NCBI RefSeq assembly: GCF_014191255.1
Contig: NZ_JACHWH010000002.1
Span: forward strand, 930,001 to 994,000
DNA from: Amycolatopsis bartoniae
Lineage (GTDB): Bacteria > Actinomycetota > Actinomycetes > Mycobacteriales > Pseudonocardiaceae
Length of the DNA: 64,000 bases
Direction: 5' to 3'
The notes under the pieces were generated by a model. The model did no database searches and was not told the origin of the DNA. It saw only the letters and a program-made list of their open reading frames with translations. A program made the translations under genes and the position numbers. This document shows, piece by piece, positions 46,425 to 55,017 of this stretch (the stretch's first letter is position 1; the number at the start of each line of letters is the position of its first letter).

Positions 46425-46757
46425 TCAACCGCGCGCGCGCTCCGTGAGGACCCGCGCCACGGGCTCCAGCCCGGACATCTCCACGACGCGCCGCACCGGG
46501 GAGCTCGGCGGCACCACCAGGTCCAGCTTCATCTGCAGCACCCGCAGCCGTTCGGCGAGGGTGAACAGGATGCGCAGCCCGGCGCTGTCGAGGTACTCCA
46601 GCTTCGCCAGGTCGAGCACGACCGTCGTGACGTCGTTGGTGACCGCGTCGTTGATCTGCTGCTGCACCTCGCTCGCGTTCGCGAGGTCGATCTCGCCCAC
46701 TATCCGCACGAGGACCGCGTCCCCGTCGACTTCCTTGGTGATCTCAGCCGCAGTCAT
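46425..46757 (-). CDS. Anti-sigma factor antagonist (STAS domain)
   Basis: This 110-residue single-domain STAS protein belongs to the RsbV/SpoIIAA type. The phospho-acceptor region reads LAKLEYLDSAGLRILFTL, with the serine in DSAG (~58). When unphosphorylated it binds an anti-sigma kinase and frees a sigma factor. It overlaps the upstream GAF-SpoIIE-HATPase gene by four bases (ATGA), so kinase/phosphatase and substrate are co-translated. GGAGGCGAAGGC provides the ribosome site. No sigma factor gene lies nearby, so the target is elsewhere. Confidence 0.9.
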   Translation of the reverse strand: MTAAEITKEVDGDAVLVRIVGEIDLANASEVQQQINDAVTNDVTTVVLDLAKLEYLDSAGLRILFTLAERLRVLQMKLDLVVPPSSPVRRVVEMSGLEPVARVLTERARG

Positions 46758-48352
46758 GCCTTCGCCTCCGGCTCGAGACGTCGCCGGATCATGACTGTCG
46801 TCCCTTCTTCGGTCCTGTTCACCTGGACGTCGTCGCCGCACTTCTGCATCAGCGTCAGTCCTCGTCCGCGGTTCTTGCCCCGCGCGGCGCGCCACCGGCC
46901 GTCGTCCCGCACGGTGACGACCAGTTCGTCGTCACGCAGTTCGATCCGCAGGTGGACATCTCCCCCGGCGGGGCCGTACGCGTGCTCCACGGAGTTCGTG
47001 CACGCCTCGCCGACCGCGAGCAGCAGGTCACCGGTGACGTCTCCGGCGACGCCGACCGCCGACAGCCAGCGCCGCATCGCCGCGCGGATGTCCTTGAGCG
47101 ACTCGGGGATCGCGGGCACGGTCACTTCGAGCGGGCCGACCTCGTCCGGCCCCTGCCGCCGGAACGCCAGCAGCGCGACGTCGTCCTCCGGCACGTACTC
47201 GCCGATGAGCTTCGCCATCACGTGCGCGCACACCTTGTCGGACGGCTCGATGTCGACCGCCGCGCGCAACGCCTCCAGCCCCTGGTCCAGCGGCGCGTGC
47301 CGGCGTTCCACCAGGCCGTCGGTGTAGAAGCAGGTGATGGTGCCCGGCGGCAGGTCGACCACCGTGGTCTGCCTGCGGGCCTCCCGCACGGCGCCGATCG
47401 GTGGGTCGGTGGGCAGCTTCGCGAACTCGGCGGGCGCGCCGGGGCGGGCCAGCACCGGGGCGAGGTGCCCCGCCGACGACAGGTACAGCTTGTCGAAGTT
47501 GGGTTCGAGGGTGCCGTAGAGGACGGTCGCCATCATGCCGGGCTCGAAGTGCTGCGCCTTGCGGTCGAGGCGGGTGAGCACGTCGGCCGGGTCGGTGGTC
47601 TCCAGCGAGTAGGCGCGCAACGCGCTGCGCAGCCGGCCCATGACCACCGCGGCGGGCAGGTCGTGCCCGACGACGTCGCCGATCACGATGCCCATCCAGC
47701 CGTTCGGCAGGGTGAACACGTCGTACCAGTCGCCGGCGACGATCGAGCGGCCGCCGGGCACGTACCGGGCCGCGAAGTCGAGCGAGAGCACGTGCGGCAG
47801 CTGGGCGGGCAGCAGGCTGCGCTGCAGCTTGGCCGCGGCGGCCCGCGCGGACTGGGCCTGCTGCGCGTCGACGGTCAGCGCCACCCGGTCGGCGGCCGCC
47901 TGCAGGAACTCGACGTCGTCGTCGGTGAAGCGGCGCGACGTGAGGCTACCGACGTGCAGCACGCCGATCACCTGTCCGCCGATCAGCAGCGGCACGCCGA
48001 GGAGGGTCTGGATGCCCCGCTCCCACAGCAACTGGTTCACGACCGTGGTGCTGTCGACCCGGTCGAGCATGACCGGGTGCTTCTCGGCGGCGACCTTCCC
48101 GGCGAAGCCCTGGCCCAGCGGCACCCGCACGCCCTGGCGCACCTCGGTCTCGATGCCCTTCGTGGCGGTGGCTATCAGCTCGGTGCCACCGGGTTCGAGG
48201 AGCAGGACGGCGACAGTGTCGGCGCTGAGCCCCTGGCAGATGCGTTCGAGCAGCTCCGTGAGGATGTCGTCGCTGTCCATGTGCGCGAGCGCGCGGTCGC
48301 TGACCGATCCCATCCGGCGGAGCCTGTCTTCCGCGCTCGCCGCTGCTGCCAT
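46754..48352 (-). CDS. GAF - SpoIIE phosphatase - RsbW-like kinase fusion
   Basis: This 532-residue three-domain signalling protein controls a partner-switch. An N-terminal GAF domain (~20-165) senses an unknown signal. A SpoIIE-type PP2C phosphatase (~170-385) carries the metal-binding AGDWYDVF, IGDVVGHD and PEDDVALLAF. A C-terminal GHKL ATPase (~395-525) shows GEACTNSVEHAYG (N box), VRDDGRW and GRGLTLMQ. It thus combines RsbU-like phosphatase and RsbW-like serine kinase in one chain. Both activities would act on the co-transcribed STAS protein. No membrane segment is present. No ribosome site was obvious before the ATG at 48352. Confidence 0.9.
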   Translation of the reverse strand: MAAAASAEDRLRRMGSVSDRALAHMDSDDILTELLERICQGLSADTVAVLLLEPGGTELIATATKGIETEVRQGVRVPLGQGFAGKVAAEKHPVMLDRVDSTTVVNQLLWERGIQTLLGVPLLIGGQVIGVLHVGSLTSRRFTDDDVEFLQAAADRVALTVDAQQAQSARAAAAKLQRSLLPAQLPHVLSLDFAARYVPGGRSIVAGDWYDVFTLPNGWMGIVIGDVVGHDLPAAVVMGRLRSALRAYSLETTDPADVLTRLDRKAQHFEPGMMATVLYGTLEPNFDKLYLSSAGHLAPVLARPGAPAEFAKLPTDPPIGAVREARRQTTVVDLPPGTITCFYTDGLVERRHAPLDQGLEALRAAVDIEPSDKVCAHVMAKLIGEYVPEDDVALLAFRRQGPDEVGPLEVTVPAIPESLKDIRAAMRRWLSAVGVAGDVTGDLLLAVGEACTNSVEHAYGPAGGDVHLRIELRDDELVVTVRDDGRWRAARGKNRGRGLTLMQKCGDDVQVNRTEEGTTVMIRRRLEPEAKA

Positions 48353-48581: not shown

Positions 48582-51500
48582 TCAGCCGCGCTCGATCAGA
48601 TGCCCCACGTGATCGGGGCCCGGGTGCGCCGCGCCGGAGCCGTCGCGGCGGTCGACCGGTTCTGGCAGCTCCACCGGGTCTCCGTTGCGGGAGACACCGG
48701 CGGGACGCGGCCCGACCCACGCCAGGGTCAGCTCCTCCTCGCCCTTGAGGAACCGGTGGGCACGCACCCCGCCCGTCGCGCGGCCCTTGGCCGGGTACTC
48801 GGTGAACGGCGTGACCTTCACCGTCTGCCCGGTCGCCGTGACCACCAGCGGCACGCCGCGTTCCGGATCGTCCGTCCGCACCGCGCCGAAGAACACCACG
48901 TGGGCGTCGTCGGCGAGCTTGATGCCCGCCATGCCACCGCTCTTGAGGCCCTGCGGCCGCACCAGCGACACCGACAACCGCAGCAGCGACGCGTCCGACG
49001 CGACGAAGGCGAGCGTCTCGTTCCGGTTGGTCAGCCAGCTGGCGCCGACCACCTCGTCGCCGTCCTTGAGGGAGATGACCTCGAACTCGTCGGCCCGCAC
49101 GGGCCACTCCGGCGCGCACACCTTGACGATCCCGTGCCGCGTGCCGAGCGCGAGCCCCGGCGACTCCGCGGCCTGCTCGCCGAGCGGCGCGAGGCCGATG
49201 ACCCGCTCGCCCTTCTCCAGCGGCACCAGCTCCCGCGCGGCCATCCCGCCGCGCAACGACACCGTGCCCGCGCCTTCGGGCAGCACCGGCAGCGGCAGCA
49301 CGTCCGTCTTGAACGCGCGGCCCCGGCTGGTGACCAGCAGAACCTGGCCCCGCGCCGTCGAGTGCACCAGCGCCGCCACCGCGTCGTGCTTCACGCGCCC
49401 GTTGCGGCGGCGGCCTTCCTGCGCCTCCTCGGACTCCGCCGCGGTGCGGGCGACCAGGCCCGTCGCGGAGAGGATCACCTGGCACGGGTCGTCCGCGACC
49501 TCGCGCGGGCCCGCGGGCTGGGACGCCGCGAGCACCTCCTTGAGGTCACCGTCGATCAGCGCGGTGCGCCGCTCGGTGCGGAAGTCCTTGGCGATCTTGG
49601 CCAGCTCGTTGGAGACGACCTTCTTCAGCTCGCGCTCGTCCTCCAGGATCGTGGTGAGCTCCGCGATCTCCGCGCGCAGCCGCTCCTGCTCGTCCTCCAG
49701 TTCCAGCTTGTCGTACTTGGTGAGCCGCCGCAGCGGCGTGTCCAGGATGTACGTCGCCTGGATCTCCGAGAGCTTGAACCGCTTCATCAGGCCGTCCTTG
49801 GCCTCGGCGGCGTTCTCGCTGTTGCGGATCAGCCGGATCACCTTGTCGATGTCCAGCAGCGCGATCAGCAGGCCCTCGACCAGGTGCAGTCGTTCCTCGC
49901 GCTTACGGCGGCGGTAACGGGTGCGCCGGGTGACCACGTCGTAGCGGTGCTGCAGGAACACGTCCAGCAGCTGCTTGAGCCCCAGCGTCTGCGGCTGCCC
50001 GTCGACGAGCACGAGGTTGTTGATGCCGAACGACTGCTCCAGCGGCGTGAGCCGGTAGAGGTCGGCCAGCAGCGGCTGCGGGTTGACGCCCACCTTGCAC
50101 TCGATGACCAGCCGGGTGCCGTTCTCGCGGTCGGTCAGGTCCTTCACGTCCGCGATGCCGGTGAGCCGCTTGGACTTGTTGACCTCGTCGGTGATCTTCT
50201 CGATCACCTTCTCCGGCCCGACGCCGTACGGCAGCTCGGTGACGGTGATGGCCTGCCGCCCGCGGCTGCCCTCCAGCGGCCCGGTCTCGACCTTCGCGCG
50301 CATGCGCACCACGCCGCGGCCGGTCTCGTACGCCTTGCGGACCTCGTCGAGCCCGAGCAGCAGCCCGCCGGTGGGCAGGTCCGGGCCGGGCACGAACTCC
50401 ATGAGCTTGTCGAGCGACGCGTTGGGGTGGTTGATGAGCCACCGCGCGGCGGCGATGATCTCGCCCATGTTGTGCGGGATCATGTTGGTGGCCATGCCGA
50501 CCGCGATGCCCGACGTGCCGTTGACCAGCAGGTTCGGGTAGGCCGCCGGCAGCACCGTCGGCTCGGACAGCGAGCCGTCGTAGTTCGGCCGGAAGTCGAC
50601 CGTCTCCTCCCCCAGCTCACCGACGAGGAGCATCGCCTCGGGCGACATACGGGCCTCGGTGTTGTGGTTGACGAAGCCACCGGCGAGGAACGAGTGGTCC
50701 TCGGAGTCCACCCGGACCGAGTAGACCTCCGCCGGCTCGGCCACGGCGACCTCGGTGATCTCCTCGAACCGGTAGCCGGAGTCCAGTACCGGCAGGACCG
50801 TGGCCAGCACCTCGGTGTCCTCGACGCGGTCGAGGAGCTCCTGCCGGTCCCCCGGCTCGAAGCCGAGGTACTCCGCGACGAACGGGACCTGCTCGCCGAG
50901 GTCCTGGGAAACTTCCAGACGGCGACCGGAACGCCGCGCGACGACGCCCAGCTCGGCGAGCAGCTCCTGCACCTCGGCGGCCAGGCGCTCGCTGTCGCAG
51001 GAGATCGTGGCGCCGCCTCCAGACAGGGCCGTCACGAACGCCCGCTTGACGCCCCAGCCACCGGTCCAGACCTCTTCCGGCACCGACCCGTGTGCTTCCG
51101 CGGCGGCGCGGGCCCCGAGCTCCGCCTCGCGAGCCGTCGGAGTCACCTGCTGCCAGGCGTTGCGCGCGATGGCGACGACCGCGCCGGGCCGCAGCTCGTC
51201 GAGCCGCCGCCACTGGAACAGCGGCACACCCATCGGCGCTTCCAGGCACAGGACCAGGTGGTTCTCGCTGCCCCGCAACGAAAAGCCCGACTCGGTGGCG
51301 ATGCGGATCGTCGGGTGGACGCCCGAGTTGAAGACCTTCGAGACCCGGACCGCCTTGCCGTCCTTGTCCAGGACCTCGAAGTCGGCGTCGGCCTCGCTGT
51401 CGGCGGGCAGGCTCACCACGTCGGCGATGCGAGGGCTCGACCCGTCCGCGAGGCGGATCCGGGTGTCCCCGACGACGCAGTACCGCGAGGCCGCCGGGCC

Positions 51501-51887
51501 GTCGTCCGGGCTGCCGAAGTTGCCGTGCCCGTCGATCAGCGGCGCGTTCATCGAGAAGTCCTGCGCCAGGCGGACCATCGCGTCGTAGATCGCCGTGTCG
51601 CCGTGCGGGTGGTAGCGGCCCATCACGTCACCGACGACGCGGGACGACTTGACGTACGCGTGGTTCGGCCGGTAGCCCGCCTCGTTCATCGCGAACAGGA
51701 TCCGGCGGTGCACCGGCTTCAGGCCGTCCCGCGCGTCGGGCAGCGCGCGGGAGTGGATGACCGAGTACGCGTACTCCAGGTACGAGTCCTCGATCTCCGT
51801 CTTGACCGGGTTCTCGAAGACCTGCGCGCCGGCCTGGTCGAAGGCCGCCGGGTCGACCCTGGTGGTGGGGGTTTTGCGCCGTGCCAT
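48582..51887 (-). CDS. parC: DNA topoisomerase IV subunit A (ParC/GyrA-like) with intein
   Basis: This 1101-residue precursor is predicted to splice to an ~828-residue type IIA topoisomerase A subunit that cuts and religates DNA. The N-terminal extein has DGLKPVHRRILFAM (~54-67) and GRYHPHGDTAIYDAMVRLAQDF (~90-111), and ends SPDDGPAASRY with the catalytic Tyr136. The intein occupies residues 137-409. The C-extein resumes TEARMSPEAMLLVGEL and contains TYILDTPLRRLTKYD and a C-terminal beta-pinwheel. The pinwheel lacks an obvious GyrA box (QRRGGKG), and the partner lies 20 bp upstream, so topoisomerase IV is more likely than gyrase; actinobacteria with such a second pair are known. AGGAGAAG precedes the ATG. 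Without splicing the active-site Tyr would be followed by foreign sequence and the enzyme would be dead. Confidence 0.9.
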   Translation of the reverse strand: MARRKTPTTRVDPAAFDQAGAQVFENPVKTEIEDSYLEYAYSVIHSRALPDARDGLKPVHRRILFAMNEAGYRPNHAYVKSSRVVGDVMGRYHPHGDTAIYDAMVRLAQDFSMNAPLIDGHGNFGSPDDGPAASRYCVVGDTRIRLADGSSPRIADVVSLPADSEADADFEVLDKDGKAVRVSKVFNSGVHPTIRIATESGFSLRGSENHLVLCLEAPMGVPLFQWRRLDELRPGAVVAIARNAWQQVTPTAREAELGARAAAEAHGSVPEEVWTGGWGVKRAFVTALSGGGATISCDSERLAAEVQELLAELGVVARRSGRRLEVSQDLGEQVPFVAEYLGFEPGDRQELLDRVEDTEVLATVLPVLDSGYRFEEITEVAVAEPAEVYSVRVDSEDHSFLAGGFVNHNTEARMSPEAMLLVGELGEETVDFRPNYDGSLSEPTVLPAAYPNLLVNGTSGIAVGMATNMIPHNMGEIIAAARWLINHPNASLDKLMEFVPGPDLPTGGLLLGLDEVRKAYETGRGVVRMRAKVETGPLEGSRGRQAITVTELPYGVGPEKVIEKITDEVNKSKRLTGIADVKDLTDRENGTRLVIECKVGVNPQPLLADLYRLTPLEQSFGINNLVLVDGQPQTLGLKQLLDVFLQHRYDVVTRRTRYRRRKREERLHLVEGLLIALLDIDKVIRLIRNSENAAEAKDGLMKRFKLSEIQATYILDTPLRRLTKYDKLELEDEQERLRAEIAELTTILEDERELKKVVSNELAKIAKDFRTERRTALIDGDLKEVLAASQPAGPREVADDPCQVILSATGLVARTAAESEEAQEGRRRNGRVKHDAVAALVHSTARGQVLLVTSRGRAFKTDVLPLPVLPEGAGTVSLRGGMAARELVPLEKGERVIGLAPLGEQAAESPGLALGTRHGIVKVCAPEWPVRADEFEVISLKDGDEVVGASWLTNRNETLAFVASDASLLRLSVSLVRPQGLKSGGMAGIKLADDAHVVFFGAVRTDDPERGVPLVVTATGQTVKVTPFTEYPAKGRATGGVRAHRFLKGEEELTLAWVGPRPAGVSRNGDPVELPEPVDRRDGSGAAHPGPDHVGHLIERG
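50661..51479 (-). other. 273-residue intein inside parC, decayed homing endonuclease
   Basis: The intein starts at Cys137 (CVVGDTRIRLADGSSPRIAD, block A) and ends HN before Thr410 (FLAGGFVNHN, blocks F/G). Terminal Cys, penultimate His, terminal Asn and +1 Thr are all intact, so splicing is expected. Block B reads GSENH, with Ser in place of the usual Thr of TxxH. The insertion point, directly after the catalytic Tyr of RY/TEARM, is the same as in mycobacterial GyrA inteins, whose ends it closely resembles. The middle (~intein residues 107-240) contains ISCDSERLAAEVQELLAELGV, typical of the second half of a LAGLIDADG endonuclease. The catalytic DG motifs are missing (FVTALSGGGA where FLRGLFDADG is usual). 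It looks like an endonuclease-dead, shrinking intein. Confidence 0.9.
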
Positions 51888-51907: not shown

Positions 51908-53965
51908 TCAGATGTCGATGGCGGCCTGGTCCACCCGGCCGGAGGACTCGATCAGCCAGTTGCGCCGCGGCTCCACCTTCTCGCCCATCAACAGGTCGAG
52001 TGCGGCCTCCGCGGCTTCCGCGTCGTCGAGGGTGATCCGGCGGACCGACCGGGTCGCCGGGTTCATCGTGGTCTCCCACAGCTCGTCGGCGTCCATCTCG
52101 CCGAGGCCCTTGAACCGCGGCACCGGCGTGACGACCGTCTTGCCCGCCCTCTCCAGCTCCGCGACCTTCGCCTCCATCTCGCGCTGGGTGAAGGTGAAGT
52201 GCGTCTCGGGGTTGCGGCCCTTGGTCATGACCTTGTGCAGCGGCGGCATCGCCGCGTACAGCCGCCCGTCCTCGATCACCGGGCGCATGTAGCGCGCGAA
52301 CAACGTGATCAGCAGCGTGCGGATGTGCGAACCGTCGACGTCCGCGTCGGCCATCAGGATCACGCGGCCGTAGCGCATCGTCGACAGGTCGAACGTACGC
52401 CCGCTGCCCGCGCCGAGCACCTGCACGATGGACGCGATCTCGGCGTTCTTCAGCGTGTCGCCGAGCGACGCCTTCTGCACGTTGAGGATCTTGCCCCGCA
52501 ACGGCAGCAGCGCCTGGTACTCCGACACACGGGCCATGCGCGCCGAGCCGAGTGCGCTGTCGCCCTCGACGAGGAACAGCTCGCTGCGCGAGATGCCCGT
52601 GGTGCGGCAGTCGACGAGCTTCGGCGGCATCGCCGCGCCTTCGAGCGCGGTCTTGCGGCGCGCCGCGTCCTTCTGCTGCTTCTGGGTCAGCCGCACGCGC
52701 GCCGCGTCGACCACCTTCTGCAGCACGATCTTGGCCTCGGACTTGGTCTTGCGGTCCTCGGTCCACGCCTTGAGCTGCTTCTCGACCACGCCCTGGATCA
52801 CCCGCGTGATGCCCGCCGTGGACAGCTCGTCCTTGGTCTGCGAGGTGAACTGCGGCTCGGGGATGCGCACGTGGATCACGGCCGTCATGCCCTCCAGCAC
52901 GTCCTCGGCCGTCGGCAGGTCCTCCTTGGGCTTGAGCAGCCCGCGGGTCTTGGAGATGGCCTCCTGCAAGGCTTTCAGCGCCCCGCGGTCGAACCCGCGG
53001 CGGTGGGTGCCGCCGTGCACGTTGCGGATGGTGTTGGTGAAGCACTCGACCGTGCGCTCGTAGCCGGTGCTCCACCGCAGCGCCACCTCGATCTCGGCGC
53101 GACGCTCCACATTGGACTTCATCACGCCGTTCTCGTCGGCGGCGTTCTCCTTGTACGTGCCCTCGCCGGTGATCATGATGATGCCCGACACCGGCTTGTC
53201 GCCGCTGGGCGTCAGGAACTCCACCATGTCCCGCAGGCCGTGGGGGTAGGAGAACGTCTCCTCGCCGATCGAGCCCTCGGTGGCGTCCCGCAGCACGTAC
53301 GTGACCCCGGGCACGAGGAACGCGGTGTTGCGCAGCTTGGCGCGCACCGCCTCGGTGTCGAGCTTCGCGCCCGTCTCGAAGTAGCGGGAGTCGTACCAGT
53401 AGCGGATCGAGGTGCCGGTGCGCTCGCCGCGCTTCATCTTCCCCACCACGCGCAGCCCCGGCTGCGGGGTGAACTTCGCCTTCGGGCCCGGCCCGTCGAA
53501 CACGCCGGGCACGCCGTGCGCGAACGACATCTCGTGCACCTTGCCGTCGTTCCTCACGGTGACGTCGAAGCGGTGTGACAGCGCGTTGACCGCCGACGCG
53601 CCCACCCCGTGCAGCCCGCCGGAGGTCTTGTAGCCGGAACCGCCGAACTTGCCGCCCGCGTGCAGCCGCGTGAGCACCAGTTCGACGCCGGAAAGGCCGG
53701 ATTTCGCGTGTTTCCCGGTGGGGATGCCGCGGCCGTCGTCGTCGACCTGGACGCTGCCGTCCGCGTGCAGGGTGACCACGACCCGGGTGGCGTGACCGGC
53801 GACACCCTCGTCGGTCGAGTTGTCCACGATCTCGGTGAACAGGTGGTTGATCCCGCGGCTGTCGGTGGACCCGATGTACATGCCGGGCCGCTTGCGGACA
53901 GCTTCCAGCCCCTCGAGGTGCGTCAGGTCGTCGGCCCCGTAGAGGGGCTCAGCAGAGGCGGTCAC
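51908..53965 (-). CDS. parE: DNA topoisomerase IV subunit B (ParE/GyrB-like)
   Basis: This 685-residue ATPase subunit partners the downstream ParC. The GHKL ATPase domain shows EAVRKRPGMYIGSTDSRG (~19-36), EIVDNSTDEGVAGHA (~43, catalytic Glu), VDDDGRGIPTGKH (~71) and a Gly-rich lid around GGSGYKTSGGLHGVGASAVNAL (~105). The Toprim domain has FLVEGDSALGSA (~460) and MADADVDGSHIRTLL (~543), with the acidic metal site. PRFKGLGEMDADELWETTMNP is near the C-terminus. The GTG at 53965 is chosen because homology begins right after it and GGGAGAAAG precedes it. The parC start lies 20 bp downstream, so they form an operon. Length and motifs are normal. Confidence 0.92.
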   Translation of the reverse strand: MTASAEPLYGADDLTHLEGLEAVRKRPGMYIGSTDSRGINHLFTEIVDNSTDEGVAGHATRVVVTLHADGSVQVDDDGRGIPTGKHAKSGLSGVELVLTRLHAGGKFGGSGYKTSGGLHGVGASAVNALSHRFDVTVRNDGKVHEMSFAHGVPGVFDGPGPKAKFTPQPGLRVVGKMKRGERTGTSIRYWYDSRYFETGAKLDTEAVRAKLRNTAFLVPGVTYVLRDATEGSIGEETFSYPHGLRDMVEFLTPSGDKPVSGIIMITGEGTYKENAADENGVMKSNVERRAEIEVALRWSTGYERTVECFTNTIRNVHGGTHRRGFDRGALKALQEAISKTRGLLKPKEDLPTAEDVLEGMTAVIHVRIPEPQFTSQTKDELSTAGITRVIQGVVEKQLKAWTEDRKTKSEAKIVLQKVVDAARVRLTQKQQKDAARRKTALEGAAMPPKLVDCRTTGISRSELFLVEGDSALGSARMARVSEYQALLPLRGKILNVQKASLGDTLKNAEIASIVQVLGAGSGRTFDLSTMRYGRVILMADADVDGSHIRTLLITLFARYMRPVIEDGRLYAAMPPLHKVMTKGRNPETHFTFTQREMEAKVAELERAGKTVVTPVPRFKGLGEMDADELWETTMNPATRSVRRITLDDAEAAEAALDLLMGEKVEPRRNWLIESSGRVDQAAIDI

Positions 53966-54084
53966 AGGGTCTTTCTCCCAGGTCGTGGCGGAATGTGGCG
54001 TCGAACCGGCGACCCACGGTAGGACAGGGTATCGGACCGGTCCGACAAAACCGCGTTCCTCGAGGCGTGCCGTACCCTCGGGAC

Positions 54085-55017
54085 GTGACAAAACGGCCCG
54101 AACCACCGCTGCCTCAGCGGCACGGTCTGGACCCGGCGCGGATGAAACTGCCCGCCGAGGGCCCATGGGCGACGGTGCGGGACCACCTCGTCGAACGCAT
54201 CCCGCGGCTGCCACCGGGGCGCCTCGACGAGATGCTCGCGGAGGGCCGGATCGTCGGGCTCGACGGGCCGGTGACGCGGGAAACGCCGTTCAAGGCGGGG
54301 GCGTACATCTGGTTCCACCGCGACCTGCCGGAGGAGACGCCGGTTCCGTTCCGGATCGACGTCGTGCACGCCGACGAGCACCTCGTCGTGGTGGACAAGC
54401 CGCACTTCCTGGCCACGATCCCGCGCGGGCAGCACGTGCTGGAGACGGCGCTGGTGCGGTTGCGGCGCGACCTGGAGCTGCCCGAGCTGAGCCCCGCCCA
54501 CCGGCTGGACCGCGTCACCGCCGGGCTGCTGATGTTCGTGCGGCGGCGGGAGCACCGCGGCGCGTACCAGACGTTGTTCCGCGATCGCCGCGTCCGCAAG
54601 GAGTACGAGGCGATCGCGCCCCACGACCCCGCGCTCGAACTGCCGCGCACAGTGGTCAGCCGGATCGTGAAGGAGCGCGGAACCATTACGGCGGAAGAGG
54701 TTCCGGGCCCGCCGAACGCCGAGACCCGCGTCGAGCTGCTGGAGCACTCGGGCGGGCTGGGCCGTTACCGGCTGGTGCCCGCGACGGGCCGCACGCACCA
54801 GCTGCGGGTGCACATGAACTCGCTGGGCGTGCCGATCCTCGGCGACCGGTTCTACCCGGTGGTGCGGGAGACGCCGCTGCACGACTTCCGCCGCCCGCTG
54901 CAGCTGCTGGCCAAGACGCTGGAGTTCCGCGACCCGCTGACGGGGGAAGAACGGCGGTTCGAGAGCCGCCGGGCGTTGCAGGCGTGGAGTTCCTACGCGG
55001 ATTGGGAATCCGCCTAG
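54085..55017 (+). CDS. RluA-family RNA pseudouridine synthase
   Basis: This 310-residue enzyme isomerises uridine to pseudouridine in rRNA or tRNA. The catalytic Asp lies in SPAHRLDRVTAGLLMFV (~138-154). Other family motifs are HLVVVDKPHFLATIP (~98), RVRKEYEAIAP (~174) and RYRLVPATGRTHQLRVHMNSLGVPILGD (~232-259). The N-terminal ~75 residues resemble the S4-like part of actinobacterial homologues. The GTG at 54085 has TACCCT six bases upstream and no ribosome site, so it is probably leaderless. The target nucleotide is not predictable. It converges on the G3E GTPase gene, four bases apart. Confidence 0.87.
   Translation: MTKRPEPPLPQRHGLDPARMKLPAEGPWATVRDHLVERIPRLPPGRLDEMLAEGRIVGLDGPVTRETPFKAGAYIWFHRDLPEETPVPFRIDVVHADEHLVVVDKPHFLATIPRGQHVLETALVRLRRDLELPELSPAHRLDRVTAGLLMFVRRREHRGAYQTLFRDRRVRKEYEAIAPHDPALELPRTVVSRIVKERGTITAEEVPGPPNAETRVELLEHSGGLGRYRLVPATGRTHQLRVHMNSLGVPILGDRFYPVVRETPLHDFRRPLQLLAKTLEFRDPLTGEERRFESRRALQAWSSYADWESA

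Follow-up and report, generated by a model that had tools for sequence, protein, structure and literature searches.

The GyrA intein of Mycobacterium xenopi (Mxe; structure 1am2) is a mini-intein, without a homing endonuclease (HEN). Inteins are described as going through a homing cycle, in which they invade, spread, lose the endonuclease, and vanish (PMC8966425), and some HEN domains have been proposed to be helpful to the HINT (splicing) domain (PMC8966425, PMC6801210). Here we describe a 273-residue intein in ParC (topoisomerase IV) of Amycolatopsis bartoniae. It lies in a stretch of 64,000 nucleotides (contig NZ_JACHWH010000002.1, positions 930,001 to 994,000), which we call the window; positions are given within the window and all features are on the minus strand. 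A ParC intein was not mentioned in the titles and abstract openings that we searched, and "ParC" did not occur in the intein papers that we text-searched; most of the subscription literature was outside the scope of these searches. Our best explanation, in which we have considerable confidence, is that this is a class 1 intein that very probably splices by the usual route, whose HEN is dead, and which has reached a late stage in its homing cycle.

The insert (50661-51479) is 273 codons in frame with no stop, and the reading frame that holds it (48582-51887, 1101 codons) is open throughout. The N-extein (51480-51887) ends in AASRY, whose last residue we take, by homology, to be the active-site tyrosine of ParC. 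Then comes Cys1 of the intein, which ends in His-Asn and is followed by the threonine of TEARM; from there the C-extein runs to the stop codon (48582-50660). The host's match to PF00521 is split by exactly these 273 codons: profile positions 1-92 end with the N-extein and positions 92-431 lie in the C-extein, which also matches DNA_gyraseA_C. The insert is over the cut-off of the NCBIfam profile intein_Nterm (34.1 bits, cut-off 24.5). There is also a match to the GyrA_w_intein model (E of 5e-47), far below that model's whole-protein cut-off, and one to the GyrA intein of Mxe (E of 1.8e-26). Intein_Cterm gives 15.6 bits on the precursor, which equals its cut-off, and 15.3 on the insert alone; Pfam's Intein_splicing gives 27.9 bits, under its cut-off of 35.8. 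Because of the first three matches, and because there are parC genes in the same genus without the insert, it is not a chance feature. GC content is unremarkable (0.70-0.73 around the insert and 0.66-0.75 across the 7 kb profiled). An earlier note on this DNA had proposed an intein interrupting parC at the active-site tyrosine. The exact coordinates, the junctions, the profile matches, and the structural model bear this out, and at the level of sequence we regard 50661-51479 as confirmed to be a class 1 intein directly after the catalytic tyrosine.

Residues 1-110 (51150-51479) make up the N-terminal half of the splicing domain, which is strand-rich in the structural model, and residues 217-273 (50661-50831) make up the C-terminal half, with blocks F and G and the final His-Asn; both halves were recognized from their identity to the A. 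sacchari intein described below. The features of a class 1 intein are present: Cys1, block B with His74, the C-terminal His-Asn with threonine next, and a predicted HINT fold. The splicing residues are thus intact, as the earlier note had it. Splicing would proceed by attack of Cys1 on the Tyr-Cys bond, transfer of the chain to Thr+1, and cyclisation of Asn273. The exteins would then be joined, and the 1101-residue precursor would give an 828-residue ParC with its catalytic tyrosine in place. Block B (GSENH, residues 70-74, 51258-51272) was previously singled out for having serine instead of threonine, but 56 of 57 unique ParC inteins have serine here (GSENH in 52, GSHNH in 3, and GSQNH in 1; the remaining one has GTENH), so this is a family trait, and we rejected it as a sign of splicing decay. 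Cys1 is present in all 57. In gyrA inteins block B has GT (20 of 20).

By its sequence and surroundings, the host is ParC, because it has no GyrA box, because the genome has a separate gyrA that does, and because a GyrB/ParE-like gene is directly upstream. A box of the QKRGGKG type is a marker of GyrA. The genome (7.76 Mb in 23 contigs) has one further gene with a PF00521 match, its own gyrA, which has the box QKRGGKG and no insert at the homologous site (AAAMRYTESRL). This answers a check suggested in the earlier note, namely whether the true gyrA also carries an intein. A search with TIGR01445 found no further inteins in this genome. The upstream gene (51908-54214) encodes a ParE-like type II topoisomerase subunit B; its GyrB/ParE matches are not over cut-off, and its true start is probably inside the reading frame. 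Among topoisomerase models, the precursor passes the cut-off of the general PRK05561 subfamily alone and does not reach those of the parC and gyrA equivalogs.

Full-length ParC inteins typically have LGVLAGAWVSEG as LAGLIDADG motif 1 and KRAFLMAAFEGDGG as motif 2, and FEGDGG is found at motif 2 in 44 of 44. What the window intein retains of the two motifs is REAELGARAAA and GVKRAFVTALSGGG, both without the catalytic acids. Aligned to the full-length inteins, the remnant of helix 1 (residues 116-127, 51099-51134; a helix at 116-128 in the model) is cut short and has lost its acidic end. Motif 2 reads KRAFVTALSGGG, and the remnant of helix 2 (residues 143-156, 51012-51053) ends in LSGGG, so the acid of FEGDGG is lost. 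Reference residues 128-205 (about 78) are missing, as are five shorter stretches of at least 4 residues; residues 290-323 of the reference are among those deleted. What is left of the second HEN half (residues 133-205, 50865-51083) forms helices and strands in the model and is identical to A. sacchari at 42 of 78 positions (reference 206-345). The earlier note had given ISCDSERLAAEVQELLAELGV as the LAGLIDADG-like sequence, but the alignment and the models place it after motif 2: it aligns with the strand and helix that follow the second LAGLIDADG helix, outside the motif.

The AF2 model of the window intein has a pLDDT of 86.6 and drops below 50 only at 265-273. It shows the HINT fold and, from the HEN, a stump of helix 1 as well as helix 2 and some of the second half; this is the partial LAGLIDADG fold that the earlier note had suggested looking for. 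Foldseek and VIA matches back the HINT fold, with the Mxe GyrA intein as the closest by prediction. The A. sacchari intein was modelled as well (pLDDT 90): its motifs are in helices 116-130 and 219-234, and each is followed by the strands and helices of one HEN half; its Foldseek matches include TliVMA and PI-PfuI, with I-DmoI lower down. An intact HEN has two acid-ending LAGLIDADG helices in an alpha-beta fold of two halves, and the window intein has neither. Nor is it a HEN-free mini-intein, since the second half still contributes about 73 residues between the splicing halves. With the first half gone and these residues remaining, it does lie between a full intein and a mini-intein, as had been proposed. 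From the loss of the first half and of both catalytic acids, we infer that the HEN is dead; the earlier note was right in its main line, including the decaying endonuclease. An in-frame deletion would have removed the first half, and the second half no longer has its catalytic acid or several of its loops.

The nearest relative is the ParC intein of A. sacchari (L079, identical to L058), which has 429 residues and both LAGLIDADG motifs. The ParC exteins of the two are 97% identical, making A. sacchari the closest row (the fork has SH-aLRT 95 in a quick tree), and the splicing domains are 92% identical, with 108 of 115 residues matching in the N-terminal splicing part (residues 1-115) and 50 of 57 in the C-terminal half. 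A. sacchari is also nearest by path in the gyrA tree. Since this closest relative keeps the full 429-residue intein, the simplest reading is that the first half was deleted after the two lineages split, and the loss looks recent. Within the genus, 7 of 19 genomes have the ParC intein, and in the other 12 the parC site is complete and empty. Four same-genus genomes (G004, G009, G011, and G013) have inteins identical to ones from named records (A. alkalitolerans, A. pithecellobii, A. sacchari, and A. taiwanensis). To explain presence and absence, the extein and gyrA trees need a minimum of four changes, of which three are forced by starred branches; this fits both gain and loss of the element within the genus.

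Substitution rates changed in the remnant. By NG86 (17 pairs; L090-L154 and L085-L099 were covered by pairwise fits, and L100-L106 was left out), the window and A. sacchari differ by dN 0.018 and dS 0.31 in the exteins, by 0.043/0.37 and 0.057/0.31 in the two splicing halves, and by dN 0.341 and dS 0.55 in the remnant. In the same part of the HEN, the full-length pair L054-L058 gives dN 0.068 and dS 0.54. A four-taxon codon model estimated a ratio for the remnant of 0.267 on the window branch versus 0.032 elsewhere, or about eightfold (2dlnL of 12.8 for two ratios and 6.2 against a ratio of 1). Two other reduced clades gave 0.255 and 0.181, and there was no rise in two full-length control sets. 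Pairwise fits (15 pairs) gave remnant ratios of 0.40 (L141-L143) and 0.12 (L072-L136) for reduced ParC pairs and 0.16 (L175-L177), 0.15 (L176-L177), and 0.04 (L178-L179, with the second-half Asp intact) for reduced gyrA pairs. All five are below 1, each with 2dlnL of at least 9.0. In the same part, nine full-length pairs were at 0.02-0.10 and the window-A. sacchari pair was at 0.18. Constraint on the remnant is relaxed yet not gone. The codon models rejected a neutral remnant, subject to the caveat of saturation.

Loss of the same half has recurred. Among the 46 ParC inteins in 390 genomes of the family, 13 are reduced. Twelve of the 13 keep 0-57% of reference residues 131-207 together with 70% or more of residues 235-290, and the other one (188 residues) has lost both HEN halves. 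Six of 7 reduced gyrA inteins have lost the first half in the same way; the seventh (378 residues) lost only the part after the second half. By eye, a further gyrA form (L211, 367 residues) also has the half-HEN layout. Full and reduced forms are intermingled on the trees. Changes between them number 7 on the ParC extein tree (8 counting empties for the reduced label, and 6 forced by starred branches) and 9 on the intein tree (3 forced); the 188-residue form accounts for one of these changes. This suggests that the first half was lost in roughly six to eight separate events. When the largest deletion was placed at random within 116-372, only 0.00011 of draws put all of five well separated cases in the first half. 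For ten cases, among them four gyrA forms and the 188-residue form, the observed 8 of 10 in the first half corresponds to 0.000005 of draws. The five cases were hand-chosen and the gaps come from one alignment, so these values are only a guide.

Among 44 full-length ParC inteins, the acid of motif 2 is present in all and the acid of motif 1 is missing in 6 (L081, L088, L093, L098, L149, and L156, with SGG, TGG, SQG, or SAG at this position and FEGDGG kept). The enzymes of these six might nick instead of cut. We tentatively suggest a preferred order of decay, which is possible rather than probable: the first-half acid would be lost, and then the first half would be excised, repeatedly and at nearly the same boundaries, in two paralogous hosts. 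The dead second half would be kept, under weaker but real selection, as an aid to splicing or folding, and within the homing cycle the half-HEN form would be a stable stage that has its own function.

Several observations weigh against this account or against parts of our best explanation. Eight HEN-free gyrA inteins of 165-194 residues (fetched for their short frames) and one of 215 residues exist, and so does the HEN-free 188-residue ParC intein; the second half is not generally needed. On the window branch, the ratio is raised in the N-terminal splicing half as well (0.104 vs. 0.014, 2dlnL 7.0), where it is not clearly below 1 (2dlnL 3.0), and the estimate for the C-terminal segment, 12.2, is meaningless because the branch is near zero. 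The relaxation may thus extend beyond the remnant. The rates come from GC-rich synonymous sites that are near saturation in several pairs, and single values are rough. Finally, the sister relation of the splicing domain to A. sacchari is not strongly supported (92/69, not starred) and the gyrA-tree fork is weak (55/33). A strict need for the second half is weakened by the HEN-free relatives, including the 215-residue gyrA intein (L205, genome G064): compared to the 420-residue intein L185 (G069), its first 105 residues are all identical, as are 58 of its last 60. L205 looks like the loss of nearly a whole HEN in one step, unlike the half-HEN route. The 188-residue ParC mini-intein (L145) is from genome G227, whose gyrA has an intein of 420 residues in which both motifs are present.

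At E of 1e-6, the intein has matches in 91 of the family's 390 genomes, and in 46 of the 390 we read an insert in ParC (7 from the genus, including the window, and 39 fetched), each after the host flank AASRY. The 20 lower-identity matches that we fetched were all gyrA inteins at the homologous site. The earlier note, which named mycobacterial GyrA inteins, was right that the insert is at the site homologous to theirs; it was right as well that the host is ParC rather than gyrase, but with 46 ParC inteins in the family this is not an unusual location. At least nine genomes have both inteins (G025, G034, G037, G039, G060, G096, G227, G249, and G253), and two of these have half-HEN inteins in both parC and gyrA (L142 and L176 in G034; L139 and L177 in G037). 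The 20 gyrA inteins form one separate clade (100/100), and accordingly we saw no recent jump between gyrA and parC.

A scan of named genomes yielded 41 loci, all reading Arg-Tyr, then Cys to His-Asn, and then Thr-Glu. By title, 40 are from genera that we take to belong to Pseudonocardiaceae and Micromonosporaceae, and one (L112, 3374-4648) is from a metagenome-assembled genome of Acidimicrobiia. This last is a ParC-type intein of 425 residues that is 69% identical over residues 1-127; its host protein is highly divergent, with no confident name, and spread between classes is possible. We retained it in the trees despite its abnormally long extein branch. Merging both sources, and dropping four duplicates and further duplicates between sources, left the 57 unique ParC inteins. 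The reduced ones have 188, 273 (window), 318, 321, 322, 333, 334, 335, 348, 352 (two), 373, and 381 residues, and the longer ones have 425, 428 (two), and 429 (41). In a search across the order, 79 of 397 genomes matched (E of 1e-10); it served only to choose loci, and the 16 chosen, mostly for short frames, are not a frequency sample, and one of them (L206) has no intein by the junction pattern. In one scan for a phage source (viral_contigs, 83 pattern matches), we found no relative. Downstream of parC in the window, 46754-48352 encodes a regulator-like protein with weak matches to RsbW/RsbA anti-sigma and response-regulator families, all below cut-off.

Alternatively, the intein could have come in by recombination from another lineage in which it had already been shortened, and reduced inteins with similar end points do occur in several genera. 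However, its splicing halves are closest to those of A. sacchari, and its remnant is about equally distant from five full-length ParC forms (53-60%) and from the reduced forms L055, L057, L136, and L142 (53-58%), as expected of one fast branch, so we consider an import rather unlikely. Single-motif LAGLIDADG enzymes work as homodimers, and the remaining half could be an active nuclease of this kind: 6 of the 12 reduced ParC inteins that retain this half keep its Asp, and a reduced gyrA pair with the Asp intact has a dN/dS of 0.043 in the second-half part. For the window intein, which has LSGGG in place of the acid and lacks reference 290-323, this seems extremely improbable.

If the intein no longer spliced, then parC would be failing and gyrase would decatenate in its place. 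Topoisomerase IV is reported to be dispensable for partitioning in Streptomyces with linear chromosomes (PMC3905888), and splicing of the window intein is itself a prediction from sequence. But with every splicing residue present, the reading frame open throughout, and the ParC parts under strong purifying selection relative to A. sacchari, we think that failure to splice is very unlikely. The intein might also persist as a switch that regulates topoisomerase IV, as conditional splicing has been reported for mycobacterial DnaB inteins (PMC7360933, PMC8557812). Twelve of the 19 genomes in the genus do without the intein, and such a role seems quite unlikely to us. We favor a splicing intein with a dead HEN that would persist only via ParC's need for splicing. 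The second half tends to outlast the first; a probable reason is that, being joined to the C-terminal splicing half, it aids folding or at least does no harm.

At one insertion site and in one family, many stages are found together: empty sites, full-length inteins with both motifs, full-length inteins with one acid lost, half-HEN forms, and HEN-free forms. The window intein records the wearing down of the DNA-cutting domain of a selfish element, and together with the full-length A. sacchari form, it makes a natural pair for asking whether a dead half-HEN aids splicing. What appears to be new here is the full-length near relative, the clear shift in rates, and the repeated loss of the same HEN half.

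Among known inteins, that of M. xenopi is in GyrA while the window intein is in ParC, retains about 73 residues of a HEN, and has serine in block B where Mxe has threonine. The A. sacchari intein shares the gene and the site and differs by its length of 429 residues and its two LAGLIDADG motifs. The family's gyrA inteins (L175-L194) are at the homologous site with the same domain layout, are 39-50% identical over the matched parts, and include half-HEN forms too, but they form their own clade and have GT instead of GS in block B. PhoVMA (7qst; Foldseek E of 1.5e-10 to the window intein) is described as having lost the acids of both motifs while keeping part of the HEN scaffold, as the window intein has (PMC8966425). 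The difference is that PhoVMA, by the same description, is only partly truncated, in block E, and retains the architecture of the HEN, whereas the window intein has lost the first half.
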